Below, one piece after another: positions 38,143 through 61,555 of a stretch of DNA of 64,000 nucleotides. Location of the stretch: the NCBI RefSeq assembly GCF_028728065.1, contig NZ_CP117812.1, positions 1 through 64,000 on the forward strand, written 5' to 3'. Both the position numbers and the translations under genes were made by a program. The notes beneath the pieces are model-generated. The model saw only the letters and a list, made by a program, of their open reading frames with translations, did not search any database and was not told the DNA's origin. The number at the start of each line of letters is the position of its first letter. Within the stretch, counting starts at the first letter, position 1. The stretch is from Lentisphaera profundi. GTDB taxonomy: Bacteria > Verrucomicrobiota > Lentisphaeria > Lentisphaerales > Lentisphaeraceae.

Positions 38143-38173
38143 AAAAAAAGCCCAAAACCGAAGTTTTGGGCTT
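38143..38173 (-). terminator. Rho-independent terminator captured from tRNA-Gly, ends adhesin operon
   Basis: On the minus strand an 11-bp stem (AAGCCCAAAAC with GTTTTGGGCTT, loop TTCG) is followed by T residues. It lies 35 nt after the adhesin stop, so a duplicated tRNA terminator now ends a 22-kb protein operon. Confidence 0.85.
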
Positions 38174-38194
38174 AAGAGCGAGTGATGAGACTCG
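38143..38194. repeat. direct repeat copy 1 (attR-like): tRNA-Gly 3' fragment plus terminator
   Basis: Identical over all 52 bases to 60761-60812. Positions 38177-38194 correspond to the last 18 nt of the tRNA (discriminator base, 3' acceptor strand and part of the T arm). The rest is the tRNA's terminator hairpin. No other part of a tRNA follows, so this copy cannot be functional as a tRNA. It begins 14 nt beyond the adhesin stop codon. Confidence 0.85.
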
Positions 38195-38207
38195 TTAATA
38201 CCCAGTA

Positions 38208-41200
38208 TTAAATCATTTGATCATCAAGAGGTTCGTCATCTAGCGGATCATCAATGATGTTATGATCGTCTAGATGATGGTCATCTTGACTGTGATGATC
38301 TGCATCTACGATATCTACATCGTGAATCGCTAGAGACGGATCATCGTGATCTTGAGTCTCAAAGAGATCGTGAACTTGATCTTGATCGAGGTTTTCTACT
38401 GCTTGTTTAGTGACTTCATCCTGATCTGAATGATCGGAAATATGAAGATCGATATTGTCAGTGAAGCTATCAACATCGGCGATATCATGACTTGAGGCGT
38501 TCTGATAATTGGTATCTACATGAGCCATGAAGCTATCTACATCATGATGTAGAATCTCTTGACTTGAATGATCAACATCATTTACAAGTGCCATAAAGGA
38601 TTGTAGAGGATCATCAAACATATCAGGAGCATCAGCTTGTACGGCACCGTGTACAGGAGGAGCAGGTGGCGGGGGAAGCGCAGTAGCGACATCTGTATGG
38701 CCATGAACATCCAGTGTGATATCGTGATGTTCACCAGTCGTGGTAGCAACGGAAAAGACATCATGCTCTAAATCACCATCATTAAGATGATCGGCTTTGG
38801 CTTGGTCAAGAGTATATTTCCAGGAACCATCTGTTTGCAGATCCAATGCTCCAAAAGTGCCATCGAAATGCCCGGCCGTGAAGTCTACATCATGGCCATC
38901 GCTAGGGTGGGCATCGATAAAACCACTGACTTCATGATCCTGATCTTCGGTCAGTGAAGCGTGACCTTGGATGACCGTGAGCGTTCCTGTTGATTCAATA
39001 GAATCGTTTTTCCCATCGCTTACTGTGTACTTAAAATCTACGTCACCATGAAAATCTGTTGCGGGGGTGAAAACAAGCTTAGCAATATCGCCGGCGGTAA
39101 TATCTTGTCCGGCGCTGACAGCGTTGCCGTCTAAGGTTAAGGTCCCTTGTTTGGTGTCAGGTAGCCCAGTAATAGAAACATGATCTAATACATCACCTGC
39201 ATCGCCATCACTAAAACCAAAATCACTTACACTAAAGGTATGAGCGCTGTCTTCTTGGGTATCGATCGACTGTACTGTTGCGGTTGGTATGAAGTTATGT
39301 CCGCCAATGTCTGCACCGGTAAAGTGAAAGGTCTCGGTGGCACTCGCGCTGCTCGCTTCCCCATACGTGCCTTCACTTTGTTCAACACGGATTTGAATAT
39401 CAAGATTGTTCATCACTCCACTCTTACCGTATATCGCTGCCTGATCCATCTCTGCCACGGGCACATGATAGGTCACGAAGCCGGGATCTGGATCTACCTT
39501 CCCATGGCTCAGGTCATCTGACACCGGATAAGTGGCCATTCCACCGGGACGAGTGACTAGAACACCATCGGCAACGCGAACATAGAGCATCGTGGTTTCG
39601 TCTGTATCGACTTGCTTAAAGTCGATTAAGTCACCGACATGATGGATGTTTCCACCGGCACTTAAATCAATTGGGGCGGCGGAGCTTGCCCCAACCCAGC
39701 TTGAGTCTACGCTGACGATATCTTCTATCACGGCATCTAAGGTAATGTGGCCAAGACGGACGACTTCTTCGGTGCTGTTGTCAGGGCCTGTGGTTATTAC
39801 GTGCAATTTATAGTCAGCTGTTACACCGTCTGTATCATGGGTATTTACCTGCAGATGAGAAAGGGTACTTGGGTCAATGGTCCAACTGCCATCTATATTA
39901 TGCACGGGTGCCGTACCGCTGGTACCTGCGGCTAAGCGCAGGCTGAAAGAGGCTGGCAGGTCGGTGATGGTAACGCCAGTGATCGGGTCCTGGCTGTCTG
40001 TGGCATGCGCGCTAAGCGGCATATCAAGCCATTGTTGGTGTTCACCGGCGTCAATATTTTGAACATCCACTCGGGCCACGTCGGTTACGGAGGCAATGTC
40101 AATATGGCGAGACATGGCCGCCGATTCCGCGGTATCTGTGCCGTCAGTACTGATGGCTTTTACATTGAGGTCGATACTGCCATGAAAATTCTTGGGAAAA
40201 CTCGCGGTTAATGATGTGGCGTCGCCACTATCAACCAACCACGAACCATCGGCTTGCTTGGTGCCGTGATTCAGCGTGGTTCCGGCCGGTAGACCTTCGA
40301 TATGCAGTTGTAAATGCTCGCTGCTATCCGGGTCGGAAACAGAAAAATGCAGATCAAGAGACCCGTCTTCAGTGAGGCCTAATGCCTTGGGTGCCCCACC
40401 GGCTTGGCCGGCAAGGTGATCGAACAATACCGCCTCTGTTCCCAGGCCCATTACGCTGCTAAACGTAGAGACACCACGTATAACGTCGAAGAGGGTGCCC
40501 TGGCTAGACGGGTCAAAACCAATAATTCTTAACCCTGCACTGGGCTGGACACCGGCTTTAAAACTGAACTCAATGGTGTCGCCCGTATGCAGGCCCGAGA
40601 GGGGAAGAAAGTGTGCAAGTCCACCTACAGGAATTTGCAGGAGTTCACCGTGATGCTCAATGTCGAAGTGCTTCATCATCCCCATAGAGAATGGAGCGGG
40701 GTGGCCGTTTACTTTAATGCCAGCCAGATCATCAAGAGTGGCGCCGCCTGTAAATTGCAGAAAAGATAATCCTGTTTTCGAACTCGGGTCATATTTTGAG
40801 AGCAAGTCTGCCTGATTAGCGTCCAGGGTAATAGTTTGGTCCAGACTCGGTGGCCCGGCTGCAGCGGCAAGGCTGCTGGAGCCGTTCACGTCAAAGGCAT
40901 CGATGTTGGGGGCGTCTGCCACGGGGTTAACATTTAAGGTGATGGCGTGAGCTGTGCTGTCGGCGGTGTGGCTGCCATCGCTAGCCGTTGCCGTTGCGTG
41001 GAGTTGGATATCGCCGGAAAAATCCTTCGGCGGGGTAATTTTAAGCCCGCTGATATCACCCGCTTGAACCGTCCATTGTCCATGGCCGTCGTCATGACCT
41101 GTTGAAAAACTAGCGCCTGTGGGAACACCTGTGATGACGTATTGAGTAATAGCATCGCCTGCTGCTGCCGTGGCACCAAGTGTGAGTGCTATGGCGGTGT

Positions 41201-44200
41201 CCTCGTCACCCGTGGTATCCGTGCCCGTCATGGTCGGGGCATCGACGGTATTGGCGACCTGGATGGTTCCAGTCGCTTCGGCTGAGTCGGATGTCCCATC
41301 ATTGACAGTATATTTGAAGTTTACATCACCGTTGAAATCAGCAACCGGTGTGAAAAGCAATTTCCCTATGTCGCCCGAAGAGATGTCCTGGCCATCTGTA
41401 ACGGCGTTGCCGTCAAGAGTAAGGACTCCCTCGCTGATGTCGGGTAGATCAGTGATGGTGACGTGATCCAAGGTATCGCTAGTATCTACGTCAGTAAAAC
41501 CAAAATTTGCCGCAGTGAATTGATAATCTTGATCTTCCGTACCATGTAGTGAGGCAATAGTAACGGTTGGTGCATCATTTGTTCCAGCTACGTTAAATGT
41601 GGCCGTTTGGGCGATTGTGCCGCCCTGACCATCACTTATGTTATAAGTAATGGTTAGGGCTTGGGTTTCACCAGCTGCTAGGTGATCGAATACAGCGTTT
41701 GTTGGATCAATTGACAAGATATGTCCATCTGCGCTTAGGCTAAGCCCTGCGGGCAAGCTACTTGTTGCTGCAGCGCCATCGACACTATATTGGATGCCAT
41801 TGACCGATAGAGTATCGGCATCAATATCACTTGCACCTTGAAGTAAATCTAAAGATGAACTGGCATCGCCTTCATCAACACTGCTAGCCAGCGCGTTGGT
41901 GACAACGGGTGCATCATTGATATTTGTTACGGTTAAGTTTCCTGTTGATTCTGGTGAATCTGCATTTCCATCATTGACGGTATACTTGAAGTTTACATCG
42001 CCATTAAAATCTGCTTTTGGTGTAAAAGTTAAATGCTGAATGTCTGTTGCACTGATATCTTGATTTGCGCTAAGGGCGACACCATTGAGCATCAGCACGC
42101 CTTCTGTTGGGTCAGGTAGATCGGTAATGGTGACATGGTCCAAGGTATCGCTAGTATCTACGTCAGTGAAACCAAAATTTGCCGCAGTGAATTGATAATC
42201 TTGATCTTCAGTACCGCTGAGAGGCGAGGCGGTCACTGTTGGTGCATCGTTGGTCCCCGCAATATTCACCTGTATTTCGTGTAGAGTTCCATCTGTCGAT
42301 TCAACTGTAAAGATGTCTTTATGTGAATCACCATCAGCCATAGAATTGAGATTAGATTTTGGTGTAAAGGTCCACTGTCCCCCTGATTGCATGCTTAAAT
42401 CGCCAAAGGCACCATGGTAGGTATTTGCACTAAAAGATTGCTGCGAAGCATCGTTATCTTGAATGGTTAAGGTGCCAGGCACAGCACTGTCTTCATCAGT
42501 ATTTTCTAGATCATCACCAGAGATAATGGCATTGGGAATAGGTCGTGTTGGATCGAGCTTAATACCATTAAATTCTGTGTGAATTTCGTGCGTACCATCC
42601 GGCCCTTCTGTTGTGGCGGTCACACCAATGTTCATATTGTGGACGACTCCAGCAGGCAGTTGGGCAGTAATTTTTGATAAGTCCCAACCTTGCAGGTCAA
42701 TTTGATCTCCAATACCTGTTATGGTATGGGTGTGGCTGCCATCCGAGACCACAGTATCTTTAATGAAACCTTGAATTGCGATGCCGGTTACTTTGTCGTC
42801 GGGATCACTAGGTGATACTTGAGGGGTGATATGTAATAAGGAACCAGGAGGAGGAACAGACATATTGGTATCGACGATTTGGCTTTCATGATGAACGCCA
42901 TTTTCGGCTAAAGTATGTGCGCCCGTAGTATCCTGAATATGTCCTGCAATAGAACGAACGTCAAAGATCAAGCCGGTATGAACGCTTGCCATTGAAGCAA
43001 GAGGCCCTTGTGCCACTTGTTGCGAAGACATAGAATGAGTGCTCATGGCAGCATTAAAAATATTCCCATCATAATGTTCACCACTATTCCAAGTTGGTGA
43101 GGCAATGCCTCCATTAGCTTTTTGTCCCAGGACCATATAAAGGTCTGCAGGTAAAGTACCGCCTTTATGATAGCCATGAGCGGTACTGACAAGTTGGCCA
43201 TTGTCGAAGACTTTTAAATCGCCCGATGTTGAATCCCACGTTAATGTGACGCGATGGCTATTACCATCACCTAAGTTAATACCCGTTGCGATATCGCCAG
43301 CTCCGCCGATTTTCATATTGCCGGGATTCCATAGAGAAAGCATATTGGTACTTGTCCCATGGCCCATGTTGACGACAACAGGACCTGTAGAAGCGCCTGT
43401 ATCAGCAACAGCCTTACCTAATACAGTCATTTCAAAAGTGAATTCAGTGAGAGCACTTGGAGCTGCGATACTATCAACTTGAATGCGGCCAGTAGAGCCT
43501 GTGCTAACAATTTGTTGTTCGACAGAAGTCGTCAGCTGAATATTGGCAGGGTCCGTAACGGTGCTCACGGCCATGGTCATATGGTTATCCACATTGGCAG
43601 TACCATCATTAACTTTGTAGGAGATATCTGCATCGCCTTTGAAGTTAGTCGCGGGATGATAGGTCCAAGTGCCATCTCCATTATCAGTAATAGTTCCGTG
43701 TGCGGGGTCCACATGAACAGAATTGACATCGAGGGTGTCGTGGTCAATATCTGCAGAGCCACTTAACAAGTCGGCTTTAGTGAGAATTATGTCAGTGTCT
43801 TCAGTGGTCGTCGCGCTTGTGGCGACAATAGTTGGTAGATCATTGACATTGGCTAAAGTTAGAGTTCCCGTAGCTTCTGCGGAATCCGCATTTCCATCAT
43901 TGACGGTGTATTTGAAGTTTATATCACCATTGAAGTCTGATTTTGGAACAAAAGTTAAATGCTGAATATCTGCAGCGCTGATATCTTGATTTGCGCTGAT
44001 TGCCACACCGTTGAGCATCAATTGCCCTTCAGTCGCGAGATCAGGTAGATCCGTAATGGTAACATGGTCCAAGGTATCGGTCGTATCTGTATCGGCGAAG
44101 CCGAAGTTTGCTGCGGTAAACTGGTAGTCCTGATCTTCAGTTCCATGTAGTGTAGCGACTGTTACTGTTGGTGCATCGTTCGATCCCGCCACATCCATCA

Positions 44201-47200
44201 CAATATGATGAACCGTGCCATCTTTAGCATGGATAATGAGGTTGTCTTGAACATTTTGTCCAACAGCTAGAGCTTGGACAGCATTGCTTTGTGCGGTGGT
44301 TTGGTCGAGTTGATAGGTCCAGGATCCATCAGTGTTCATATGGAGTGAGCCATATGTGCCCTGAACATCTTCGTCTCTAAATGAGGATTGATTATCATCG
44401 GGATCAGTAATGGTGAGGCTTCCTGTGGCACTTGTACTTGCGTCTTCGGTTGTTGAACCTGTAGCGACACCAGCGATTGTGGGAACGTCATTTGTCCCTT
44501 GTATCGTAAGCGTCGTCGTCTGATGGACGAGACCACCATGTGAGTCTTTGACATCATAAGTGAGGGTGATTGTTTGACTATCACCTGCAGCAAGATGATT
44601 GAAACTTGCATCCGTAGGATCAAGAACAAGCGTATGGCCATCAGCAGCGAGGGTGACACCTGCAGGTAGCGACGTGTTTGCTGTGGCTGAACCCATTTGG
44701 TATTGAATATTGTCAATGCTTAATGTTTCCCCAGTATCAGGATCGGTAGCGCCATGGAGCAAATCAACGTTATGGGTAGAGCCATCCTCCTTGCTGGTAT
44801 CCGTAAGCGCAGCCGCGACTTCTGGTGGTGCATTGACAAAAAGACTTACACCTTGAGTGACTGACTTGCTCTCACCGGATTCAGAGGCAGTTGCTGTAAC
44901 GTTGAAGTTGAGATCACCATGGAAATTGGCATTATGGAGGTCAACCTTTAAACCTTGAAGGTCAGATTGATGGAGAACCCACATTTTTGCCAGGCCATCC
45001 CATGTTCCGTTACTGAGTGTGGATCCTACGGGAAGACCCGAAATTTTAACCAGCAAATCCTCATTGGTGTTTTCATCAGTCAATTGAGCATTGAGATTCA
45101 AGGGGATTTCGTTCCCTTGCTGAGCTGTCAGAGCATTTGCGCTAAGCGTGGGTGCATCCACGGAGCCGTGAATGGTGATGGTGACAGGGTGAGTAACGGA
45201 CTGACCATCTGGCGTTGTGGCCGTGACTTGAACCACTTCCTGCAGCGTCTGATTTGGACCTAAATGGTTAACGTCCGCATTGCTGTTATCCATATGATAG
45301 TGGTACTGACCATGTTCATCAATTGAGAACGTTCCATACTTCACTGCATGTTGAGCTTGCGCGGTGAACGTTGGGGTATCGCCATCATCCACATCTGAGG
45401 CCGTCAAATGACCATTGATATCAGTTTGAGACGTATCTTCTTTCATGTCGACATCCAAACCTGCAGGTGTATTGTCATCCACCGCCGGGCCATGAACGTC
45501 GTAGACCCGTTCCGCAGAACTATGCCCTTGGGCATCTTCGGTATGGAGATGATGTTCGCCATCCGCCAAGCCGGGTGCGGCCAATGACCAATGACCGTTG
45601 CTATCAACAGTGGCCGTGCCAAGAATTGAGTTTCCTTCTTTGACCGTAATCGTTTCCCCAGCAGTTCCCTGGCCTGAAAGCAGAGCGTTGCCTTTGCTTA
45701 AATGATCATATTTACTGTAATAGAGGTAGTCGACTTCACTTGGACCGCCATCACAAACACGATTAATTACACCAATGGTACCATCAGAGAAAACAACAAC
45801 GCCACCTTCCCAGGAGTTGCCATGACCAGATGCACCGCCTGAACCGGTATTAGTTGTATCGGGAACTCCATGGGATTGCCACCAACCGTGACTATCGACA
45901 CGACTAAAACCCCCTGAACCACTATGAGCGGTGGAAGTTGTGGGCTCCTGCCCAGAACTTAGCTCATTATGATCACTACCAGGTTTATAGAGACCAACAA
46001 TGTGAACGCCTGCACCAGGACCGGTTTGGCTAGCACCCCAATTTGCATGAGGATCAATCGTTGAACCATCAACCTTATCAATCACCTGCAAATCTTGGAT
46101 ACTCATTCCCCCTGTGCCAGTCGCGGAGGAACTTGCGGTGCTGGAAATAACAGGTTGATCTTCTGTGCCGTGAATCGTCACGGTAACCGTATGTTTGGTT
46201 CCGTCGCTAGCCGTGAAAACATGGCTCTCGGTTTGGGAGGCGCCTTGGTCCAAATTTTGAACTTTGCTGTTGTCCAGCGTAAACTGCCAGTTTCCATTGC
46301 TCATCGACCAAGAACCATAAGTACCCGGAGTTGCTGCTACGTCGGCAAAGCCTGGAGTGTCCGTTTTGTCTAGGTCACTGATAGTAAGTTGTTCTGATAC
46401 ACTTGCAGTTCCATCTTCAGTTACACTACCAGTGCTTGTTCCAGTGACTACGGCGGCATCGTCTGTGCCGTTGATTGTTACATTGATTTGATGTGTCGTT
46501 CCATCGGCTGATTGAACGGTTATACTTTCGGTCAGCCTTTCACCTGAACCAAGTTCCTGCACGGTGGTATTGGAGTTATCGAGATCGTAAGTCCAGGCAC
46601 CAGAATCGGTCATGTGTAAGGTGCCGAGAGTTCCAGTATAATCAGTATCCGAGAAATGATTTTCACCAGTGTCGGTGTCGCTAATGGTCAGAGTACCAGA
46701 AGTCTGCAGAGCAGATTCTTCTGTGACTTGACCCGTTGCGGAACCCGCAATCTGGGCGACGTCATTAGTACCATTGACGGTAAGGGTGATCTGATGAGTA
46801 GTTCCGTCAGCTGATTTCACTGTAATGGTATCAGTTGCAGAGCTTCCTTGAGCAAGGGCTTGCACGGTGGTATTGGAATTATCTAAATCGTAAGTCCAGG
46901 CACCAGAGTCAGTCATATGCAAGGTGCCGAGGGTACCTGTATAATCAGTATTGGAGAAATGATTTTCGCCAGTATCGGTATCGGAAATTGTCAGGGTGCC
47001 TGACGTTTGTAGGCTTGTTTCTTCCGTGACTTGACCTGAATGAGTACCTGTGATTTGGGCGGCATCATTAGTACCGTTGACGGTAACGGTGATCTGATGA
47101 CTTGTACCATCAGCTGATTTCACGGTGATGGTATCAGTTGCAGAGCTTCCTTGAGCGAGAGCTTGCACGGTGGTGTTAGAGTTATCGAGATCATAAGTCC

Positions 47201-50200
47201 AAGCACCAGAGTCAGTCATATGCAGAGTGCCGAGAGTACCCGTGTAATCAGTATCCGAGAAATGATTTTCACCAGTGTCGGTGTCGCTAATGGTCAGAGT
47301 ACCAGAAGTCTGCAGAGCAGATTCTTCTGTGACTTGACCCGTTGCGGAACCCGCAATCTGGGCGACATCATTGGTGCCATTGACAGTTACTGTGATTTGA
47401 TGAGTAGTTCCGTCAGCTGATTTTACGGTGATAGTATCCGTAGCAGAGCTTCCTTGAGCGAGAGCTTGCACGGTGGTATTGGAGTTATCGAGATCATAAG
47501 TCCAGGCACCAGAATCAGTCATATGCAGAGTACCCAAAGTCCCTGTGTAATCCGTATCCGAGAAATGATTTTCGCCTGTGTCAGTATCAGAAATAGTAAG
47601 TGTGCCAGAAGTCTGCAGGGCAGATTCTTCAGTGACTTGTCCCGTTGCGGAACCCGCAATCTGGGCGACGTCATTAGTGCCATTGACGGTAACGGTGATC
47701 TGATGAGTAGTTCCGTCAGCTGATTTCACGGTGATGGTATCAGTTGCAGAGCTTCCTTGAGCGAGGGCTTGCACTGTGGTATTGGAATTATCGAGATCGT
47801 AAGTCCAGGCACCAGAATCGGTCATGTGCAGAGTGCCGAGAGTTCCAGTGTAATCCGTGTCGGAGAAATGATTTTCGCCTGTGTCAGTGTCGCTAATGGT
47901 CAGAGTACCCGAAGTCTGTAGGGCAGATTCTTCAGTGACTTGTCCCGTTGCGGAACCCGCAATCTGGGCGGCATCATTCGTACCGTTGACAGTTACTGTG
48001 ATCTGATGAGTAGTTCCGTCAGCTGATTTCACAGTGATAGTATCCGTAGACCTTGCACCCTGAGCGAGGGCTTGCACGGTGGTATTGGAGTTGTCGAGAT
48101 CGTAAGTCCACGCCCCTGAGTCCGTCATGTGCAGTGTGCCGAGAGTGCCAGCGTAATCAGTATCAGAGAAATGTGCTTCCCCCGTGTCCGTGTCGCTAAT
48201 TGTCAGAGTGCCTGACGTTTGTAGGCTTGTTTCTTCTGTAACTTGACCTGAATGAGTACCTGTGATTTGGGCGGCATCATTAGTACCGTTGACGGTAACG
48301 GTGATCTGATGACTTGTACCATCAGCTGATTTCACGGTGATGGTATCAGTTGCAGAGCTTCCTTGAGCGAGAGCTTGCACGGTGGTGTTAGAGTTATCGA
48401 GATCATAAGTCCAAGCACCAGAGTCCGTCATGTGCAGCGTGCCGAGAGTACCGGCGTAATCAGTATCAGAGAAATGCGCTTCGCCCGTGTCCGTGTCGGA
48501 AATTGTCAGAGTGCCTGACGTTTGTAGGCTTGTTTCTTCCGTGACTTGGCCTGAATTAGTACCCGCAATCTGAGCGACATCATTCGTACCGTTGACCGTG
48601 AGGGTAATTTGATGGGTGCTGCCATCGGCAGATTTCACGGTGATAGTATCCGTTGCAGAGCTTCCTTGAGCGAGGGCTTGCACGGTGGTATTGGAGTTAT
48701 CGAGATCGTAAGTCCACGCCCCTGAGTCCGTCATGTGCAGCGTGCCGAGAGTGCCAGCATAATCAGTATTAGAGAAATGTGCTTCACCAGTATCGGTATC
48801 GGAAATTGTCAGGGTGCCTGACGTTTGTAGGCTTGTTTCTTCCGTGACTTGACCTGAATGAGTACCTGTGATTTGGGCGGCATCATTAGTGCCGTTGACC
48901 GTGAGGGTAATTTGATGGGTGCTGCCATCAGCAGATTTCACGGTGATAGTATCCGTTGCAGAGCTTCCTTGAGCGAGGGCTTGCACGGTGGTATTGGAGT
49001 TATCGAGATCGTAAGTCCACGCCCCTGAGTCCGTCATGTGCAGCGTGCCGAGAGTGCCAGCATAATCAGTATCCGAGAAATGTGCTTCACCAGTATCGGT
49101 ATCGGAAATAGTAAGTGTACCAGAAGTCTGCAGAGCAGATTCTTCAGTTACTTGGCCTGAATTAGTACCCGCAATCTGGGCGACATCATTAGTACCGTTG
49201 ACCGTAATAGTTATTTGATGAGTAGTTCCGTCAGCTGATTTCACAGTGATAGTATCGGTAGCCCTTGCACCTTGAGCGAGGGCTTGCACGCTTGTATTGG
49301 AGTTATCGAGATCGTAAGTCCACGCCCCTGAGTCCGTCATGTGCAGAGTGCCGAGAGTGCCGGCGTAATCAGTATCAGAGAAATGTGCTTCCCCCGTGTC
49401 TGTATCAGAAATAGTAAGTGTACCAGAAGTCTGCAGAGCAGATTCTTCAGTTACTTGACCCGTTGCGGAACCCGCAATCTGGGCGGCATCATTCGTACCG
49501 TTGACAGTTACTGTGATCTGATGAGTAGTTCCGTCAGCTGATTTCACAGTGATGGTATCAGTTGCAGAGCTTCCTTGAGCGAGGGCTTGCACGCTTGTAT
49601 TGGAATTATCGAGATCGTAAGTCCAGGCACCAGAATCGGTCATGTGTAAGGTGCCGAGAGTTCCAGTATAATCAGTATCCGAGAAATGATTTTCACCAGT
49701 GTCGGTGTCGCTAATGGTCAGAGTACCAGAAGTCTGCAGAGCAGATTCTTCTGTGACTTGACCCGTTGCGGAACCCGCAATCTGGGCGACGTCATTAGTA
49801 CCATTGACGGTAAGGGTGATCTGATGAGTAGTTCCGTCAGCTGATTTCACTGTAATGGTATCAGTTGCAGAGCTTCCTTGAGCAAGGGCTTGCACGGTGG
49901 TATTGGAATTATCTAAATCGTAAGTCCAGGCACCAGAGTCAGTCATATGCAAGGTGCCGAGGGTACCTGTATAATCAGTATTGGAGAAATGATTTTCGCC
50001 AGTATCGGTATCGGAAATTGTCAGGGTGCCTGACGTTTGTAGGCTTGTTTCTTCCGTGACTTGACCTGAATGAGTACCTGTGATTTGGGCGGCATCATTA
50101 GTACCGTTGACGGTAACGGTGATCTGATGACTTGTACCATCAGCTGATTTCACGGTGATGGTATCAGTTGCAGAGCTTCCTTGAGCGAGAGCTTGCACGG

Positions 50201-53200
50201 TGGTGTTAGAGTTATCGAGATCATAAGTCCAAGCACCAGAGTCAGTCATATGCAGAGTGCCGAGAGTACCCGTGTAATCAGTATCCGAGAAATGATTTTC
50301 ACCAGTGTCGGTGTCGCTAATGGTCAGAGTACCAGAAGTCTGCAGAGCAGATTCTTCTGTGACTTGACCCGTTGCGGAACCCGCAATCTGGGCGACATCA
50401 TTGGTGCCATTGACAGTTACTGTGATTTGATGAGTAGTTCCGTCAGCTGATTTTACGGTGATAGTATCCGTAGCAGAGCTTCCTTGAGCGAGAGCTTGCA
50501 CGGTGGTATTGGAGTTATCGAGATCATAAGTCCAGGCACCAGAATCAGTCATATGCAGAGTACCCAAAGTCCCTGTGTAATCCGTATCCGAGAAATGATT
50601 TTCGCCTGTGTCAGTATCAGAAATAGTAAGTGTGCCAGAAGTCTGCAGGGCAGATTCTTCAGTGACTTGTCCCGTTGCGGAACCCGCAATCTGGGCGACG
50701 TCATTAGTGCCATTGACGGTAACGGTGATCTGATGAGTAGTTCCGTCAGCTGATTTCACGGTGATGGTATCCGTTGCAGAGCTTCCTTGAGCGAGGGCTT
50801 GCACTGTGGTATTGGAATTATCGAGATCGTAAGTCCAGGCACCAGAATCGGTCATGTGCAGAGTGCCGAGAGTTCCAGTGTAATCCGTGTCGGAGAAATG
50901 ATTTTCGCCTGTGTCAGTGTCGCTAATGGTCAGAGTACCCGAAGTCTGTAGGGCAGATTCTTCAGTGACTTGTCCCGTTGCGGAACCCGCAATCTGGGCG
51001 GCATCATTCGTACCGTTGACAGTTACTGTGATCTGATGAGTAGTTCCGTCAGCTGATTTCACAGTGATAGTATCCGTAGACCTTGCACCCTGAGCGAGGG
51101 CTTGCACGGTGGTATTGGAGTTGTCGAGATCGTAAGTCCACGCCCCTGAGTCCGTCATGTGCAGTGTGCCGAGAGTGCCAGCGTAATCAGTATCAGAGAA
51201 ATGTGCTTCCCCCGTGTCCGTGTCGCTAATTGTCAGAGTGCCTGACGTTTGTAGGCTTGTTTCTTCTGTAACTTGACCTGAATGAGTACCTGTGATTTGT
51301 GCGGCATCATTAGTACCGTTGACGGTGACAGAAATTTGATGAGTTGTACCATCGGCAGATTTCACGGTGATAGTATCCGTTGCAGAGCTTCCTTGAGCGA
51401 GGGCTTGCACGGTGGTATTGGAGTTATCGAGATCGTAAGTCCACGCCCCTGAGTCCGTCATGTGCAGCGTGCCGAGAGTACCGGCGTAATCAGTATCAGA
51501 GAAATGCGCTTCGCCCGTGTCCGTGTCGGAAATTGTCAGAGTGCCTGACGTTTGTAGGCTTGTTTCTTCCGTGACTTGGCCTGAATTAGTACCCGCAATC
51601 TGAGCGACATCATTCGTACCGTTGACCGTGAGGGTAATTTGATGGGTGCTGCCATCGGCAGATTTCACGGTGATAGTATCCGTTGCAGAGCTTCCTTGAG
51701 CGAGGGCTTGCACGGTGGTATTGGAGTTATCGAGATCGTAAGTCCACGCCCCTGAGTCCGTCATGTGCAGCGTGCCGAGAGTACCGGCGTAATCAGTATC
51801 AGAGAAATGCGCTTCGCCCGTGTCCGTGTCGGAAATTGTCAGAGTGCCTGACGTTTGTAGGCTTGTTTCTTCCGTGACTTGGCCTGAATTAGTACCCGCA
51901 ATCTGAGCGACATCATTCGTACCGTTGACCGTGAGGGTAATTTGATGGGTGCTGCCATCGGCAGATTTCACGGTGATAGTATCCGTTGCAGAGCTTCCTT
52001 GAGCGAGGGCTTGCACGGTGGTATTGGAGTTATCGAGATCGTAAGTCCACGCCCCTGAGTCCGTCATGTGCAGCGTGCCGAGAGTGCCAGCATAATCAGT
52101 ATTAGAGAAATGTGCTTCACCAGTATCGGTATCGGAAATTGTCAGGGTGCCTGACGTTTGTAGGCTTGTTTCTTCCGTGACTTGACCTGAATGAGTACCT
52201 GTGATTTGGGCGGCATCATTAGTGCCGTTGACCGTGAGGGTAATTTGATGGGTGCTGCCATCAGCAGATTTCACGGTGATAGTATCCGTTGCAGAGCTTC
52301 CTTGAGCGAGGGCTTGCACGGTGGTATTGGAGTTATCGAGATCGTAAGTCCACGCCCCTGAGTCCGTCATGTGCAGCGTGCCGAGAGTGCCAGCATAATC
52401 AGTATCCGAGAAATGTGCTTCACCAGTATCGGTATCGGAAATAGTAAGTGTACCAGAAGTCTGCAGAGCAGATTCTTCAGTTACTTGACCCGTTGCGGAA
52501 CCCGCAATTTGGGCGACATCATTGGTGCCATTGACAGTTACTGTGATTTGATGAGTAGTTCCGTCAGCTGATTTCACAGTGATGGTATCAGTTGCAGAGC
52601 TTCCTTGAGCGAGGGCTTGCACGGTGGTATTAGAGTTGTCGAGATCGTAAGTCCACGCCCCTGAGTCCGTCATGTGCAGTGTGCCGAGAGTTCCAGTGTA
52701 ATCAGTATCCGAGAAATGATTTTCGCCCGTGTCCGTGTCGGAAATTGTCAGAGTGCCTGACGTTTGTAGGCTTGTTTCTTCCGTGACTTGGCCTGAATTA
52801 GTACCCGCAATCTGGGCGACATCATTAGTACCGTTGACCGTAATAGTTATTTGATGAGTAGTTCCGTCAGCTGATTTCACAGTGATAGTATCGGTAGCCC
52901 TTGCACCTTGAGCGAGGGCTTGCACGCTTGTATTGGAGTTATCGAGATCGTAAGTCCACGCCCCTGAGTCCGTCATGTGCAGAGTGCCGAGAGTGCCGGC
53001 GTAATCAGTATCAGAGAAATGTGCTTCCCCCGTGTCTGTATCAGAAATAGTAAGTGTACCAGAAGTCTGCAGAGCAGATTCTTCAGTTACTTGACCCGTT
53101 GCGGAACCCGCAATCTGGGCGGCATCATTCGTACCGTTGACAGTTACTGTGATCTGATGAGTAGTTCCGTCAGCTGATTTCACAGTGATGGTATCAGTTG

Positions 53201-54362: not shown

Positions 54363-54372
54363 GATTTACTCC

Positions 54373-55716
54373 TTACCTTTCGTGTAAACCGCTCTCAAGA
54401 GTGGTATAAATTGGTTTTAATAAATATTGAAAGACTGTTTTATTGCCGGTAATAATATCGACTTCGGAAGTCATGCCGGGCAAGAGCTTGTGTTCTTTGA
54501 TGCTTCCAAGGTAAACTTGTTTGGGACTTACCCAACCTTTGTAGAAAAGACCTCCTCGTTCGTCGGAAAAAGTCGTCGGTGAAATACGCGTAATTGTCCC
54601 TTCAATAGAGCCATAGCGTGAGAAATCGTAAGTATCTAGTTTTACTTGAGTATTTTGGCCAGTTTTGACAAAGCCGATATCTTTTGGTGAGATTTTAATT
54701 TCAATACTGTAACCCGTGTTGATGGGGACAATTTCCGCGACGACGCCACCAGCAGGTATGACGGAGCCAATAGAGCTACGGGGGAGGCTTTTTATAATGC
54801 CAGCAATAGGTGATTTAAGTGTATTTTTATCAAGATTCGAACTGGATTCTTTGATTTGTTCCGTAAGTCCAGCGAGATCAACTAAGACTTGGCTACGCAA
54901 TTGAAGCGCCTCAGAAAAAAACGAGCGTTTTATTTTGTCGACATTAGCTTCTACGCCTTCTAGCTGCTCAGTTAGATTTTTGCGATTATTTTGAGCACTA
55001 ATTAAACGGTTACTCACTTCGGCTTCTTGTTTCCGCGCATTGAGAATCTCGAGTTTAGAGACGGAGTCAGCTTTTTCGAGATCTTCATACATTTTGAGGA
55101 TTTCTTTATCTGCAGCTGCCTGCCTCCTCAAAGCGGGTAATTTACGATCAATTCCCCTGATTTGTTCTTGGATTGCATCTGATTTTTCCATTTCAACCGC
55201 AATGGAGGAAAAGAGTGCTTTATTACGACCGAGAAGCTCTTCTCTTTCTTCTTCAATGAGGTGGTGATATTTTTTTTCTAATTGGGTAAAATCGGGTTTG
55301 CGTTCCTGTACAAATGCTTTGAGTAACTCAGATTTTATTTGTAGGCCAATTTGTTTAGTACTGAGGCGATTTAATTCAGTGGAGGCATGAACAGGGTCAA
55401 AGGCTAAGAGCAGTTGTCCCTTCTCAACAATGTCGCCTTCTTTACAGAACAGTTCTGTTATTTGCCCACCCTCTAAACTCTGAATAATTTGCAGGTCACC
55501 AACGGGAATGACTTGCCCATGTGTCTTGGTGACTTCATCAATTGAGGTACTTGCGGCCCAAAAAATACCGCTACAAATAAAAATGGTGGTGAGTATAATA
55601 ACTGTAGAGATGGCTTTTTTATTGGAGTCGAGATGATTGAGAGAAGATTCGTTAAAAACAGTTTGTGGTTGGTTTTTAGCGAGTTCAATAATTTCTTTGT
55701 ATTGATTTTTTTTCAT
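54373..55716 (-). CDS. HlyD-type periplasmic adaptor (membrane fusion protein) of a type I secretion system
   Basis: A 447-residue protein: cytoplasmic N terminus, one membrane segment (about residues 37-55), then a lipoyl half (QVIPVGDLQIIQSLEGGQI and FCKEGDIVEKGQLLLAFDP), a long coiled coil (about 115-290), the second lipoyl half (LKSPIAGIIKSLPRSSIGSV) and a beta-barrel/C-terminal region with GMTSEVDIITGNKTVFQYLL, close to the C-terminal signature of LapC/HlyD-like adaptors. It should bridge the ABC exporter in the inner membrane and the outer-membrane channel. It overlaps the upstream ABC gene by 4 nt and is followed 10 nt later by the adhesin gene. Confidence 0.93.
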   Translation of the reverse strand: MKKNQYKEIIELAKNQPQTVFNESSLNHLDSNKKAISTVIILTTIFICSGIFWAASTSIDEVTKTHGQVIPVGDLQIIQSLEGGQITELFCKEGDIVEKGQLLLAFDPVHASTELNRLSTKQIGLQIKSELLKAFVQERKPDFTQLEKKYHHLIEEEREELLGRNKALFSSIAVEMEKSDAIQEQIRGIDRKLPALRRQAAADKEILKMYEDLEKADSVSKLEILNARKQEAEVSNRLISAQNNRKNLTEQLEGVEANVDKIKRSFFSEALQLRSQVLVDLAGLTEQIKESSSNLDKNTLKSPIAGIIKSLPRSSIGSVIPAGGVVAEIVPINTGYSIEIKISPKDIGFVKTGQNTQVKLDTYDFSRYGSIEGTITRISPTTFSDERGGLFYKGWVSPKQVYLGSIKEHKLLPGMTSEVDIITGNKTVFQYLLKPIYTTLESGLHER

Positions 55717-57776
55717 GCGGAAACCTCAGGTTTTTTTTCAATAGGGCCAAAGTGAGCGACTGATCCTTTATCAAGGATAAGAGCGTTATCGGCGAGTTGC
55801 ATTAATTCGGCACAGAGGGTTGTGAAGAAGATTGTTTTATGTCCATGAATTTGTTCAAGTAAATAGATGAAGAGCGCTTTTTCTTTAGGATAATGAGCGC
55901 TCAGATTGATGTCTAGCAGTACAATGGGGGCATCTTTAATAAAGATATTCATCACTGAGAGGTGTCTCTTTAAATAGGGATCATCTAAGTCAGCCAATTC
56001 AGTTTCTAAAGTTTTACCGCAATCAAGAAGTTCTTTAGTGAACAAATGGGCCTCACATAAACTTTTGATTTTCTCTAATGAGCACTGAGGATTGAGTTCA
56101 TGAAGAAAATCTATAATAGAGATGTGAGACCGTGGAACCCACTCACCCGCATAAGATAATTCATCACGAAAATGATAAGCATTAATATTTTTTAAATTAC
56201 TAGTGCCGATCATAGCTTTGCCTGATTGGGCATCAATAGTTTTTGTGAGGATATTTATAAGAGTTGATTTTCCGCTATTATTAGGACCTGCAATGGCCGT
56301 GGTACTCTTAGCTTCTGACTCAAAACTAACCCCAGCGAGAGCAGGATCTTGGCTATTGTTGTAGCGGAAAACGACATTATCAAATTTAAAGCCCGCAGTT
56401 TCAGTAAAGATGTTTTCTCCGGAAGATTTTTCGTCTTCAATGGGAATATAACGATCAATTTGTGCGAGCGTATTTTTGAATTTAGGTAAGCGACCAAAAG
56501 ACATAGCGGAGGACTGTATAGGTGAGGTCACTCGACGAGCGAGCATCATCGCCGCAATGAGGTCGCCAGCAGTTAATTTTTGATCCATCACTAAATAAAT
56601 ACCCGTGGCCATTGTGGCGAGACTCGTAAATTGGCTCAATACATATGATGAGTTTTGCATGAGCTGAGACAGCTTGATTTGAGTGCGATTTGCCTTGACG
56701 CTAATTTTATTAAAGTCATGATAGCGTGCTAACCAAGAATTTTTGAGCGCGGCGGCCTCGAGTTGCTGAGCATGGCGAGCCAAATCTATTTCGAGATTAA
56801 GCTTTTCCTTCTGAGCATAAGAAGAACTCATCGAGGATTGGCTTATGAGTTTATTAAAGAAAGGAATAATTAGGGCATAAATGACAATCGAAATTAAAGG
56901 CACAAGAACTAACCATCCTCCTGTGATAAAAATAGTAATGAGTGAAATGCTTAAGAAAGGTATATCTAAGAGTGATAAGCCTGAATTACTAATGAAAAAA
57001 CTACGGATGGCATCGATTTCTTTAAAACGACCAATCAGGTTTTGGTAGGGTTGGTTAGCACTTTGTAGAAAAGGTAAATTAAGGATTTTTCGGCCATATG
57101 ATAAAGTGAGTTTATAGGTCCATGAGCGACAAATATTAGCAGCCAATCTCACACGAACAAAGCGGAAGCTAAACAGAAAAATCATTGCTAGAACAGCCCC
57201 AAAAGCTAAGTGGCTTAAAGTATTAATCGACTTTGAAGGAATGGCCATATCATAGACGTGTCTGGTGAAGAGCGGAATGACAAGAGCTAAGAAGCCTAAG
57301 ATAGATGAGATCCCCAAAGCTAATATGATTTTCGGCCAAAACAGTTGTAGGCTGGTCCAGGACCAAGAACGGATTTTAGCTGAGTGATCAGTCAAGTCAA
57401 GGACTTTAAAAACATTGACTTTATGCGGACGGTCAATAGCAGATAGTTGTTCTCCGTTGTGAACGAGTAGTTGATCCCCTTTATCTTCTAGAATAACAAG
57501 CATTTCTTGATTGATCTCTGCAATGGCAATATGATCAAGAGGAGTTTGCGAGAGTTTATTTTCTTCGAGTACGTAACCCAGGCTAAGAAGAATGAGATGA
57601 ATGGAGCTCGAATCAAGTTTTGGTTGTTGACTGATGATGCTCGCCAATTGATTGGAGGTTCCTTGCCAATTAACAGCGCTTAAAATGATGGGTAGGGTCT
57701 TTAAGCACGCATGATCCTGTTCAAGCGATTCAATAAGTTCAATGACATCTTGATAAATTTTTTCTGAGTTATGCAT
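55713..57776 (-). CDS. T1SS ABC exporter subunit, C39-like N terminus, ATPase motifs mostly degenerate
   Basis: A 687-residue protein with the layout of LapB/HlyB exporters: an N-terminal C39-peptidase-like domain (about 1-130) without a catalytic Cys at the expected position, a six-segment membrane domain (about 145-430) and a nucleotide-binding domain (about 455-687). The Walker A is intact (GPNNSGKST). The ABC signature is unrecognisable (DPYLKRHLSV in its place), the Walker B reads IVLLDINLS with Asn where the catalytic Glu should be, and the switch His is Thr (IFFTTLC). It may bind ATP but should hydrolyse it poorly. It overlaps its ABC partner by 8 nt and the adaptor gene by 4 nt. Confidence 0.88.
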   Translation of the reverse strand: MHNSEKIYQDVIELIESLEQDHACLKTLPIILSAVNWQGTSNQLASIISQQPKLDSSSIHLILLSLGYVLEENKLSQTPLDHIAIAEINQEMLVILEDKGDQLLVHNGEQLSAIDRPHKVNVFKVLDLTDHSAKIRSWSWTSLQLFWPKIILALGISSILGFLALVIPLFTRHVYDMAIPSKSINTLSHLAFGAVLAMIFLFSFRFVRVRLAANICRSWTYKLTLSYGRKILNLPFLQSANQPYQNLIGRFKEIDAIRSFFISNSGLSLLDIPFLSISLITIFITGGWLVLVPLISIVIYALIIPFFNKLISQSSMSSSYAQKEKLNLEIDLARHAQQLEAAALKNSWLARYHDFNKISVKANRTQIKLSQLMQNSSYVLSQFTSLATMATGIYLVMDQKLTAGDLIAAMMLARRVTSPIQSSAMSFGRLPKFKNTLAQIDRYIPIEDEKSSGENIFTETAGFKFDNVVFRYNNSQDPALAGVSFESEAKSTTAIAGPNNSGKSTLINILTKTIDAQSGKAMIGTSNLKNINAYHFRDELSYAGEWVPRSHISIIDFLHELNPQCSLEKIKSLCEAHLFTKELLDCGKTLETELADLDDPYLKRHLSVMNIFIKDAPIVLLDINLSAHYPKEKALFIYLLEQIHGHKTIFFTTLCAELMQLADNALILDKGSVAHFGPIEKKPEVSA

Positions 57777-59304
57777 TAGCGACCTCCATTGCTGCCATCA
57801 AAGCAGCTTTTTGTGCGGATCTCGCTTCTGCTTGCTTCTTTTCTTCAAGAAGAAACTCATTCTTAGTTAACATCAGAGGATCCTTTACTAAAATCATAAA
57901 ATCATCTAATGAGTGAATGAAACTGATGAAACGCCAACGAGAAGCGGGGTCAAAAGAGCTTAAAATATCTTCAATGAGAATAAATTTTTTATTAGAAATC
58001 AGAGCTCGAATAAGAGCGATTTGTATTTTGGTTGACTTGTCATAGAAATCGAATCTATCGTTATTAACAGGATCCTCGTAGCCCTTGGGGAGCTTGTTGA
58101 AATATTCATGGAGTCCGAGTTGTCCTGCATAATCCAAGGCCTCACTGGCGTAGATTTTTTTAAAGGCAGTTAAATTTTCAATTATGGTGCCTGAAAACAA
58201 AGGGCAATGGCCGTCGATTTTAATAAAGTCAGGTTCTGAAATTCTATGATTATTGTATTTTAAATCAAAATCGTCAAGATTATCGAGAAGGTAAACACCT
58301 TCAATGCAGGGAGTGCTGTGAATACTAATAGTTTGAATCTGAAAAAACTCTTTGAAATCTTGGTTTTCAAAATGACTCAGCTCTTCTTTTGCGAGGGCAT
58401 TTTCCTGTAAGCGTACACCGGTGTTGAGTAATGCACCTACGGGAGCAATACAACGCCCTGCCAAGATAGAACAAGCTGCTAGGGCTCCCGTAGTTAACTC
58501 TCCTTGAATAACTTTGTAAGCACCAAAGCTAATGACGGATATGGTGGAGAGCTGACTAAGGACTTGGATAATGGAGCTCAGGTGAGATTGAAGTGCTGCC
58601 TGGCGAGTCGTGTTAGAAATATGATCGCTTAGGATGTTGTTTAGTTGCGCTTCTTCAATAGCAACTAAATTATTTTTTTTCTTTGAATCAAGATGAAAGA
58701 AAAAGCCATACAGTCGTGCTTGGAGGTTTTGTTCATTGCTTTCTTTTGTAAGCGATATTCGTTTTGCGTAACGGGAAAGAGTAAGACTGCTGATGATCGC
58801 AATGATGAAGAGAACTCCAGGAACTAAAGCCACATCTCCAGCTAAAAACCAGAGGATATAAAGGTAGAAAAACACGAAGGGTAAGTCAAGTAAAGCGACA
58901 ATGCTTTGGCCGGAATAATTGTTTTTGAGGATATTTAATTTATCAAAAAAAGTACGAACTCGAATGGGGCTATACTCTTTCGATGAAGTCATTATTTTAT
59001 CGGCTAATAGAATGGGAGCATCAAGTGCATAGGCTTCGCTATAGATCTGCAGTACTAAGGCCCTTAGATAGCGGAATAAGCCATCGATTACAACAGCGAT
59101 AAAAGCTGCTGAGAAAAGTAATAAAGCGGTCGAAACGGAATTATTACCTAAAATTCTATCGTAGACATGAAGCATGACAATAGGAACAGTTAAGCCTAGG
59201 ATATTAATCATAAAAGACGCCGCTAAGACATCTAGATGGATGTTTAAAAAAGGAACTATAGTTTTTGTTTTGGGCATGATAAATTTCGTCCTACCATCCA
59301 CCAC
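57769..59304 (-). CDS. T1SS ABC exporter partner subunit with no Walker A
   Basis: A 511-residue membrane protein with a type I exporter transmembrane domain (about 20-320; PIVMLHVYDRILGNNS, LLDLPFVFFYLYILWFLAGD are family-like) and a shrunken nucleotide-binding domain. No Walker A is found. A Q-loop-like PLFSGTIIENL remains. The signature position reads YDKSTKIQIALIRAL, and the Walker B is FILIEDILSSFD, with Glu-Asp instead of Asp-Glu. It is therefore a non-catalytic partner, suggesting a heterodimeric transporter with the next gene. The start may be 59304, overlapping the channel gene by 14 nt, or the ATG at 59277 behind TAGGACG. Confidence 0.82.
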   Translation of the reverse strand: MVDGRTKFIMPKTKTIVPFLNIHLDVLAASFMINILGLTVPIVMLHVYDRILGNNSVSTALLLFSAAFIAVVIDGLFRYLRALVLQIYSEAYALDAPILLADKIMTSSKEYSPIRVRTFFDKLNILKNNYSGQSIVALLDLPFVFFYLYILWFLAGDVALVPGVLFIIAIISSLTLSRYAKRISLTKESNEQNLQARLYGFFFHLDSKKKNNLVAIEEAQLNNILSDHISNTTRQAALQSHLSSIIQVLSQLSTISVISFGAYKVIQGELTTGALAACSILAGRCIAPVGALLNTGVRLQENALAKEELSHFENQDFKEFFQIQTISIHSTPCIEGVYLLDNLDDFDLKYNNHRISEPDFIKIDGHCPLFSGTIIENLTAFKKIYASEALDYAGQLGLHEYFNKLPKGYEDPVNNDRFDFYDKSTKIQIALIRALISNKKFILIEDILSSFDPASRWRFISFIHSLDDFMILVKDPLMLTKNEFLLEEKKQAEARSAQKAALMAAMEVANA

Positions 59305-60670
59305 CTAGGCTTATAAAGACTTTCGAAGTTTGAGAGAGAACTTCACGGTAGTTATCCAAGTAACGTTGCTTTGAATTGATTAGCGTCCGCTCAACTTCAA
59401 ATACTTCAAGATGTGAAATAAGTCCAGTCTCAAAGCGTTTCATCGTTTGTTGGTAAGAGACTTCCAATTGATTAGTACGTTCTTTTTCGATGGCTAATTG
59501 CTGACGGCGGTATTTGATGTTCATTATTGCTTCTTCAACATCATTAACTGCGGAGAGTAGAGATTTTTTGTACTCTATTTGTTTTGATTCAACAAAAACT
59601 CCGCGGCGTTCAAGTTCAACTTTAGTAGCAGGATCAAGTGCAGGGAAAGAGATTTTAGGTAAAACTGAAAGAACCCAATTATCGGTGATGCTCGCTAAGC
59701 TTGCAGAGGACATTGTGTAGTCTAGACCTACAGAGACTTGGGGAAGGCGTGCCACTCTTGCGGACTCTTCGTTAAAGTAAGCTTCACGTAAACGTAAGTC
59801 AGCGGCAATAACGTCGGGTCGTCGCGAGATAAGTGAAAAGCTCAATTCTTTTGGAGGCTCTGGAATACTTATGCTTTGTGTCATTTTTTGATGTTCAAGC
59901 GTAATCGCATGAGGAGCTCTACCAAGTAGCAGATTGAGTTGCATAGCGAGGACTTCTCGTTGACGTTCAATATTGACTAAGTCTGATTTTAAACGGAGTA
60001 CTTCCGCTTTTTGGGATGATGCTTGTTCTTTATTTGCGAGACCAATTTTTTCTCTATTGACGTACATGCGCAAAATCTCTTCAGTATCTTTAATAGCCCA
60101 TTCATGAAGTGACTGTTGTTCATCAAGCATGCGAATATTGAAGTAGATATTCGCCATGTCATTGATGACTTTTAGGTAGGCGCCGCGGTAATCGGCTTCA
60201 GTAGCTTTGTATTCAGCTAAAGCACCGCGACTAGCGGCTTCTAAGCGGCCCCAAATATCGGCTTCCCAGCTCACATGAGCATTAAATTTTGAACGAGATT
60301 TGAAGTTGCCATCATCACTACTAGTAGATCCAGGCTGAGAGATGCTGGAACTAAGTTTTGGGATTTTGTCGAACTGAGCATCAGACACAGCTAAGCGAGC
60401 GAGATCGACTCTTTTAACTAATAATTTAAGATCTAAGTTTTGGTCTACTGCCTGTAAGATAAGGTCATTTAATGTGGGATCATCAAAAGCTTGCCACCAA
60501 TCTTTATTAATTTTGAATGGACTCTTTGAAGTAAAATCTGCTTTTGCATCATTTTCGACAGATTTAGAAATCTCATTTTTTTTATTAATTTGCTTCGTTT
60601 CTACATCTTTCATGTTTCCACAGGAAACCATAGCTAGAGTGGCACTGAGTGCCATAAAAGTGTTTTTCAT
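59291..60670 (-). CDS. TolC/NodT-type outer-membrane channel lipoprotein
   Basis: A 459-residue outer-membrane efflux protein. The signal sequence ends in a lipobox (LAMVSC, Cys at about residue 17), so it is lipidated, as in the NodT subgroup. Two tandem coiled-coil/strand repeats are visible (WWQAFDDPTLNDLILQAVDQ, LDLKLLVKRVDLARLAV; later SFSLISRRPDVIAADLRLRE, the PDV motif). It is the leading gene of the adhesin-export operon and would supply the channel through which the giant adhesin leaves the cell. Lipid-anchored channels are more usual for RND pumps, so this is a slightly unusual T1SS component. Confidence 0.9.
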   Translation of the reverse strand: MKNTFMALSATLAMVSCGNMKDVETKQINKKNEISKSVENDAKADFTSKSPFKINKDWWQAFDDPTLNDLILQAVDQNLDLKLLVKRVDLARLAVSDAQFDKIPKLSSSISQPGSTSSDDGNFKSRSKFNAHVSWEADIWGRLEAASRGALAEYKATEADYRGAYLKVINDMANIYFNIRMLDEQQSLHEWAIKDTEEILRMYVNREKIGLANKEQASSQKAEVLRLKSDLVNIERQREVLAMQLNLLLGRAPHAITLEHQKMTQSISIPEPPKELSFSLISRRPDVIAADLRLREAYFNEESARVARLPQVSVGLDYTMSSASLASITDNWVLSVLPKISFPALDPATKVELERRGVFVESKQIEYKKSLLSAVNDVEEAIMNIKYRRQQLAIEKERTNQLEVSYQQTMKRFETGLISHLEVFEVERTLINSKQRYLDNYREVLSQTSKVFISLGGGW

Positions 60671-60760
60671 ATTTAACTCCCAAAATATTATATGAGGATA
60701 ATATAATTGTGGAGGCTACCGTTGCACTACTTTTTTCAGTAGGTTTTACAAATTAGCAGA

Positions 60761-60791
60761 AAAAAAAGCCCAAAACCGAAGTTTTGGGCTT
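60761..60791 (-). terminator. Rho-independent terminator of tRNA-Gly
   Basis: The 11-bp stem and TTCG loop start 4 nt after the tRNA 3' end on the minus strand and are followed by a run of T. This is the original of the copy at 38143-38173. Confidence 0.9.
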
Positions 60792-60812
60792 AAGAGCGAG
60801 TGATGAGACTCG
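60761..60812. repeat. direct repeat copy 2 (attL-like), within intact tRNA-Gly and its terminator
   Basis: The 52-base partner of 38143-38194. It starts in the A-run of the terminator and ends inside the T arm of the tRNA. The tRNA sequence continues intact beyond 60812, so this is the reconstituted or original target copy. Confidence 0.85.
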
Positions 60813-60866
60813 AACTCACAACATTCACCTTGGCAAGGTGATGCTCTACCATTGAGCTACACTCGC
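60795..60866 (-). tRNA. tRNA-Gly, anticodon GCC
   Basis: A 72-nt cloverleaf on the minus strand. The acceptor stem GCGAGTG pairs with CACTCGC, the D arm contains AGCTCAATGGTAGAGC, the anticodon loop is CTTGCCAAG in a closed stem, and the T loop is GTTCGAGTC. The discriminator base is T, as is common for glycine tRNAs in many bacteria, and no CCA is encoded. It is the integration target of the neighbouring island: its last 18 nt are duplicated 22.6 kb away. Confidence 0.95.
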
Positions 60867-61456: not shown

Positions 61457-61555
61457 TAGTGGGGGCCTCAAGCTTATTTACTTTCTCTTAAGTATATGTG
61501 ATTAAGTTTGAACTTAAAATTTTCTTAGCAATTTAAATACGATCCTTGAGGCCAT

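Follow-up and report, generated by a model that had tools for sequence, protein, structure and literature searches.

Introduction

Elements that integrate by way of a single tyrosine recombinase insert at the 3′ ends of genes, both those for tRNAs and those for housekeeping proteins, and the repeats that flank them carry the end of the gene concerned, according to the available part of PMC5704250. The same part describes cis-mobilizable elements (CIMEs), in which the genes for integration and transfer have been lost and attL and attR are kept, while the T-loop is a described insertion point in the accessible sections of PMC3146451. Here we describe a locus of this kind in the window, by which we mean the whole stretch of DNA analysed, the first 64 kb of contig C2 of the Lentisphaera profundi genome (G000; 2 contigs, 5.46 Mb; family Lentisphaeraceae). 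Five genes, coding for a type I secretion system with a presumed giant adhesin, lie there between an intact tRNA-Gly gene and a detached copy of its 3′ end. On sequence comparison this operon is probably an integrase-free genomic islet of the cis-mobilizable type, which would have been established by recombination in the T-loop of the tRNA-Gly(GCC) gene. The comparison draws mainly on G001, a species of the same genus, and G004, which belongs to another genus of the family. The G000 locus and a second case in G004 both fit the pattern of 3′-end insertion given in the part of PMC5704250 available, and the T-loop start of the G000 repeat fits the insertion point in that of PMC3146451.

The tRNA-Gly bracket and the genes it encloses

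The initial annotation of this DNA had placed a perfect 52-bp direct repeat around exactly five genes, one copy being the 3′ end and terminator of an intact tRNA-Gly and the other an orphan. The coordinates of the copies, 38143-38194 and 60761-60812 (22,618 bp start to start), are exact, including the right end at 60812, and five genes do lie between them. A 47-bp part of the repeat, allowing up to three mismatches, occurs twice in the window and not once in 100 dinucleotide shuffles of it. ARAGORN bears out the difference between the two copies: it calls a single intact tRNA-Gly(GCC), on the minus strand at 60794-60866, and no tRNA at the orphan position. In the minus-strand direction both copies begin within the tRNA-Gly T-loop, extend to the tRNA 3′ end and continue into a terminator-like hairpin, with an 11-pair stem that is the same in both copies, and a T-run. 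A 21-nt core of the repeat, searched for with at most one mismatch, was found in G000 only in its three tRNA-Gly genes and in the orphan, and may act as an attachment (att) site. The features of the locus are as follows.

60794..60866, minus strand: intact tRNA-Gly (GCC), the presumed target gene, called by ARAGORN; the orthologous site is empty in G001
60761..60812, minus strand: repeat copy 1, attachment-site-like and joined to the tRNA, made up of the last 19 nt of tRNA-Gly from the T-loop and an intrinsic-terminator-like hairpin
60671..60760, minus strand: 90-bp leader from repeat copy 1 to tolC; its match to the G004 leader is no better than shuffles
59291..60670, minus strand: outer-membrane channel of the TolC/NodT family, 459 aa, above cut-off for OEP and TIGR01845
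57769..59304, minus strand: ATP-binding cassette (ABC) exporter subunit 1, 511 aa; matches to type I secretion permease/ATPase models fall under cut-off, and Pfam ABC_tran is not matched
55713..57776, minus strand: ABC exporter subunit 2, 687 aa; above cut-off for ABC_membrane and ABC_tran, under it for the type I secretion models
54373..55716, minus strand: HlyD-type periplasmic adaptor, 447 aa; TIGR01843 over cut-off
38208..54362, minus strand: putative giant adhesin, 5,384 aa, with long arrays of cadherin-like and bacterial Ig repeats
38143..38194, minus strand: repeat copy 2, orphan tRNA-Gly 3′ end and terminator-like hairpin, 13 bp past the adhesin stop
36885..38111, minus strand: left flank, permease-like membrane protein (named by resemblance; neither Pfam nor NCBIfam gives a match); its G001 counterpart next to the empty site is 86% identical
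61016..61471, minus strand: right flank, glyoxalase-like small protein (named by resemblance; unmatched in Pfam); its G001 counterpart next to the empty site is 76% identical

Open reading frames of at least 100 aa between the copies amount to the five minus-strand genes and two frames (126 and 102 aa) contained within that of the adhesin. Inside the repeats the margins are 13 bp (from the adhesin stop to the orphan) and 90 bp (between the other copy and the start of tolC), too short to hold the remnant of a gene, and no related integrative and conjugative element (ICE) or integrative and mobilizable element (IME) was seen. An outer-membrane channel, an ABC exporter, a HlyD adaptor and a very large repetitive surface protein stand together in one operon, as in giant-adhesin type I secretion systems, and the most likely role of the cargo, judging from the families involved, is to secrete a very long adhesin and display it on the cell surface. 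The orphan hairpin is the sole terminator-like hairpin detected just past the adhesin operon, and we infer that it now serves as the operon's terminator.

An empty site in a species of the same genus

An empty tRNA-Gly site, with one repeat copy, joined flanks and a permease beside the tRNA, had been set beforehand as a test of the initial annotation, and such a site is present in G001. The order there is permease (86% identity), terminator, tRNA-Gly(GCC) and glyoxalase-like gene, directly joined and with one copy of the repeat. When the repeats are kept in the alignment, the match to G001 takes in the whole orphan repeat on the left side of the G000 cassette, and on the right side it begins where the tRNA-borne repeat begins. 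When they are left out, the left alignment (889/1204 columns) covers the permease gene and ends at 38084, which is 58 bp before the repeat, the spacer in between being poorly conserved; the right alignment (478/662 columns) starts at 60813, the first base past the repeat. The operon was not found in G001, in which the best match to the adaptor is 27% identical, the best to the channel 34%, and the adhesin C-terminus has none. Set against each other, the two sites show a precise insertion or a precise excision, and gain in G000 or loss in G001 would both fit.

A second bracket around the same operon in another genus

Among 58 relatives searched, only G004 has a close adaptor (83%), and among five other genomes of the family only G004 has a close channel (79%); the four family genomes without a close adaptor are 92-96% complete. 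The G004 operon is spread over three contigs, with the channel, the first ABC subunit and the start of the second on C55, the rest of the second subunit, the adaptor and the start of the adhesin on C48, and the adhesin end on C158. C55 and C48 are consecutive, the break falling within the frame of the second subunit with some 5 residues missing (by eye against the window protein), and there is no overlap between C48 and C158, so that the assembly lacks the middle part of the adhesin.

Downstream of the G004 adhesin, and tail to tail with it, is an intact gene of the sulfate permease family (sulP, PF00916). Upstream of the channel is a direct copy of the last 84 bp of sulP, stop codon included, in which 78 of 84 positions are identical (93%); this piece of C55 was also recovered as a separate sulP match. 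The margins within the bracket are 76 and 135 bp. At the three residues that differ between the two sulP copies, the four orthologues compared all side with the intact gene and none with the orphan, and both copies share a glutamine codon absent from those four orthologues. No leader common to G000 and G004 was found, 178 of 500 shuffles scoring as high. Nor was a clean empty sulP site: the G005 sequence after sulP is unlike that after the G004 orphan (by eye), and in G000, G001 and G002 sulP is followed by a different gene, common to these three (also by eye).

The two brackets support an operon that acts as one insertable unit and has used at least two gene 3′ ends, the G004 part of this resting on a fragmented assembly. 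The earlier proposal that the whole adhesin system moved as one 22.6-kb cassette draws support from the empty G001 site and the G004 bracket together. It also called for a search of relatives for the same cassette with an integrase: G004 has the same operon, and contigs C55, C48 and C158, which carry its assembled parts, gave no match to the phage-integrase family (PF00589).

Recombinases in G000 and its relatives

A helper integrase elsewhere in G000 was sought in 8 stretches of 20 kb, one of them at a contig start, which cover all 9 PF00589 matches of the genome. tRNA genes occur in one stretch only (Leu, Ser and Val), and none of the 8 contains a tRNA-Gly. In G004, contig C59 has an islet-like stretch (73228-97686) with a 72-bp repeat, made up of 45 bp before the tRNA and the first 27 nt of tRNA-Pro(GGG), in copies 24 kb apart that are 89% identical. 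A phage-integrase-family gene lies about 0.1 kb from the orphan tRNA-Pro piece, between it and the intact tRNA-Pro 5′ end, so that duplications of tRNA ends with an adjoining recombinase do occur in Lentisphaeraceae.

Two further loci carry tandem integron integrases, on G000 contig C1 (L096, 9557-12059) and on G002 contig C47 (L095, 7591-10092). All four proteins score over the TIGR02249 cut-off, the pairs are 85% and 90% identical between the two genomes, and small open reading frames and repeats lie alongside; each locus probably represents a two-integrase chromosomal integron. Legends in a paper on integron integrases (PMC3108266, available in part) mention Lentisphaera araneosa. The G002 contig, 15.7 kb long, has at 10849-10883, about 0.8 kb from its integrase pair, a second orphan tRNA-Gly(GCC) 3′ fragment, in a genome for which these searches gave one intact tRNA-Gly(GCC). 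A hairpin-like stretch follows the fragment by eye and was not called by the terminator scan. As a candidate for an insert of the kind seen at tRNA-Gly in G000, the fragment has the two integron integrases for neighbours, together with repeats that may be cassette sites.

Distribution and divergence of the operon

Identities between G000 and G004 are 79% for the channel, 66% for the first ABC subunit, 63% over 378 aa for the second, 83% for the adaptor and 49-53% for the C-terminal piece of the adhesin. Outside the cassette they are 81% for SulP and 61% for the permease, and 20 reciprocal best matches from outside the window, a small sample that surely includes paralogues, have a median of 33% with 82, 64 and 60% as the highest. 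Channel and adaptor reach the level of the top background pair, as does SulP, which was found separately, and the protein identities neither show nor exclude a recent transfer between the two genera. Beyond the family, adaptors of Pseudomonas and Vibrio score best, at 31-35% identity; matches in phage records (10 of 50,697) and plasmid records (2,080 of 72,556) are all below 60% identity.

Ten other adaptor loci of the class, taken as 24-40 kb each, had no true bracket, though several are cut by contig ends and brackets could have been missed there; the G004 operon, with its broken contigs, was left out of this test. One locus gave a repeat of 91 bp at 80% identity, a sequence present four times there that by eye corresponds to pseudopilin N-termini. 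Among 8 partly overlapping control tiles, one had a bracket, the duplicated tRNA-Pro end with its recombinase on G004 C59. The idea that bracketing repeats are general to type I secretion loci finds no support in the 10 loci; as far as seen, the bracket would be a property of this operon in G000 and G004.

Two features of the cargo, and one of its surroundings, may be added. The two ABC subunits (window 55713-59304) look like an unequal pair, the ABC_tran match being in the second and not in the first. The N-terminal half of the adhesin (window 46008-54362) contains 24 Cadherin_4 stretches which by eye are near-identical and arranged in repeated blocks, and this suggests a recent internal expansion. 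Just past the left-flank permease, at window 33405-36557, is an autotransporter-domain protein of 1,050 aa, a second likely surface protein near the cassette.

Putative mechanism and rival explanations

In the mechanism that we consider probable, a circular form of the operon, closed between the adhesin end and the tolC start and carrying a copy of the tRNA-Gly 3′ end with its terminator, would recombine in the T-loop of the tRNA-Gly(GCC) gene. The islet-borne copy of the 3′ end would keep the tRNA whole, and the original 3′ end would be displaced to the far side as the orphan, its hairpin placed so that it could serve as the terminator of the adhesin operon. The agent would presumably be a tyrosine recombinase, either lost later or supplied in trans. 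The islet reading is favoured by the intact tRNA at one end with a direct 3′ fragment at the other, the T-loop start of the repeat, the empty G001 site, the G004 bracket and the tRNA-Pro stretch with its recombinase on G004 C59. An intact tRNA and a fragment of it in a direct repeat of the 3′ end, together with a joined, single-copy empty site in a relative, are among the marks of islands that a tyrosine integrase inserts at tRNA sites, and attL- and attR-like sites without integration or transfer genes are among those of a CIME; both sets are found here.

Several observations weigh against this reading. The initial annotation was right that no integrase sits inside the G000 cassette (no PF00589 match), so the element lacks the enzyme expected within it, and none of the nine tyrosine-recombinase matches in the genome is linked to a tRNA-Gly fragment. 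The empty site is one, in one species only, and G002, which has neither the permease nor the ArgZ-like neighbour gene, provides no outgroup for the direction of change. In G004 the operon lies in the opposite orientation relative to its target gene, and the two targets, tRNA-Gly and sulP, are unrelated, which makes a single integrase for both unlikely. Composition as a mark of foreign origin gives a mixed outcome: the four transport genes have a GC content of 0.396 against a mean of 0.404 in 20 background stretches (range 0.375-0.423), the adhesin has 0.485 and the whole cassette 0.459, and the third positions of the adhesin, at 0.419, are like those of other window genes. Lastly, the two G000 terminator copies are identical to each other and differ from the G001 terminator by three substitutions and one indel, so that the islet copy would have come from the same species or been made in place. 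Given that no recombinase lies inside, that none of the nine is linked and that the core is confined to the orphan and the tRNA-Gly genes, the locus is best described as a decayed or cis-mobilizable islet with a presumed agent.

The direction of change bears on a reading with some, if limited, likelihood, namely that the cassette is ancestral at tRNA-Gly and was lost from G001 by recombination between the repeats, with no recent gain in G000. Gain and loss would leave identical empty sites, G004 has the operon as well, and the divergence of the operon is of the same order as that of SulP (81%) and the permease (61%). Yet the G004 operon is at another locus, a close adaptor is missing from 4 of the 6 family genomes searched (G000 included), and a perfect 52-bp repeat suggests no great age, though both hairpins may be under selection. 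As to mechanism, the main rival is RecA-dependent homologous recombination, in which circular or joined DNA carrying the operon and a short end of the host tRNA-Gly would have entered through 52 bp of identity without an integrase. The duplicated pieces are of the host's own type in both genomes (the terminators in G000, the glutamine codon of sulP in G004), and neither an integrase nor a conserved leader was found. We nevertheless think it unlikely, as both duplications are gene 3′ ends with the intact gene facing the insert, which is the integrase pattern in the available part of PMC5704250, and for random homologous pieces a start within a T-loop or an end on a stop codon would not be expected.

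A broader claim, that exactly these five genes have repeatedly inserted at 3′ ends of unrelated genes (tRNA-Gly, sulP) in Lentisphaeraceae, with long duplications of the host gene end, through a trans recombinase or an undescribed mechanism, is doubtful at present. A dedicated insertion mechanism, moving precisely this operon and leaving long copies (50-84 bp) of the host target at the 3′ ends of genes, we hold to be very unlikely. It would account for a pair of cases that differ in target but agree in their operon limits and in having host-like copies; against it stand the leader, no better conserved than shuffles (178/500), the want of a candidate enzyme in the cassette and the 10 other adaptor loci with no true bracket. 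A chance duplication of the tRNA end or terminator beside a resident operon, with no mobility, would suit the good placing of the orphan hairpin as an adhesin terminator. This is highly improbable: it is contradicted by the G001 flanks, joined without the operon, so that repeat and operon are present or absent together, and by the second 3′-end bracket in G004.

The integrase-free islet, as the probable reading, gives a clean occupied and empty pair for a whole giant-adhesin secretion system, with a second bracket in another genus. The pair makes testable whether such systems move as single operons, and what moves them. The locus also shows a displaced tRNA end providing the one terminator-like hairpin detected immediately downstream of the inserted operon.

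Comparison with known systems

Among the literature matches listed, no title or abstract opening describes the five-gene cassette. The islands at ssrA in Dehalococcoides, as presented in the available part of PMC3146451, are alike in that an RNA gene and direct repeats of its 3′ end enclose the cargo operons, with insertion in the T-loop; 15 of them have no integration module, and the source considers that these may be cis-mobilizable elements. A serine recombinase is present in other islands at this Dehalococcoides site, and islands stand in tandem, whereas the L. profundi locus is a single cassette with tRNA-Gly as target, no integrase island was found at its site, and a second type of target is used in another genus. 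With CIMEs, on the account in the accessible part of PMC5704250, it shares flanking attL- and attR-like repeats and the want of integration and transfer genes; it differs in being trimmed to one operon in two genera, and no related ICE or IME with the same att site was found.

In cargo, the nearest likeness by description is to Salmonella SPI-4, a pathogenicity island that holds a giant adhesin and its own type I secretion genes as one unit, and to SPI-9, whose island-encoded type I system functions in adhesion (both from the part of PMC7143636 available). The likeness is one of description, the host phyla are unrelated, and that part of the source mentions no tRNA repeats for these two islands. 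A Vibrio fortis plasmid (NZ_AP025489.1) has two adjacent ABC subunits, a HlyD adaptor 33.5% identical to ours and a giant VCBS-domain protein; unlike the L. profundi operon this set is plasmid-borne, its giant gene is on the opposite strand and no tolC is annotated in the stretch shown. The known kind to which the locus belongs is the integrase-less islet at a gene 3′ end; what is particular here is its reduction to a single operon and its two different targets.

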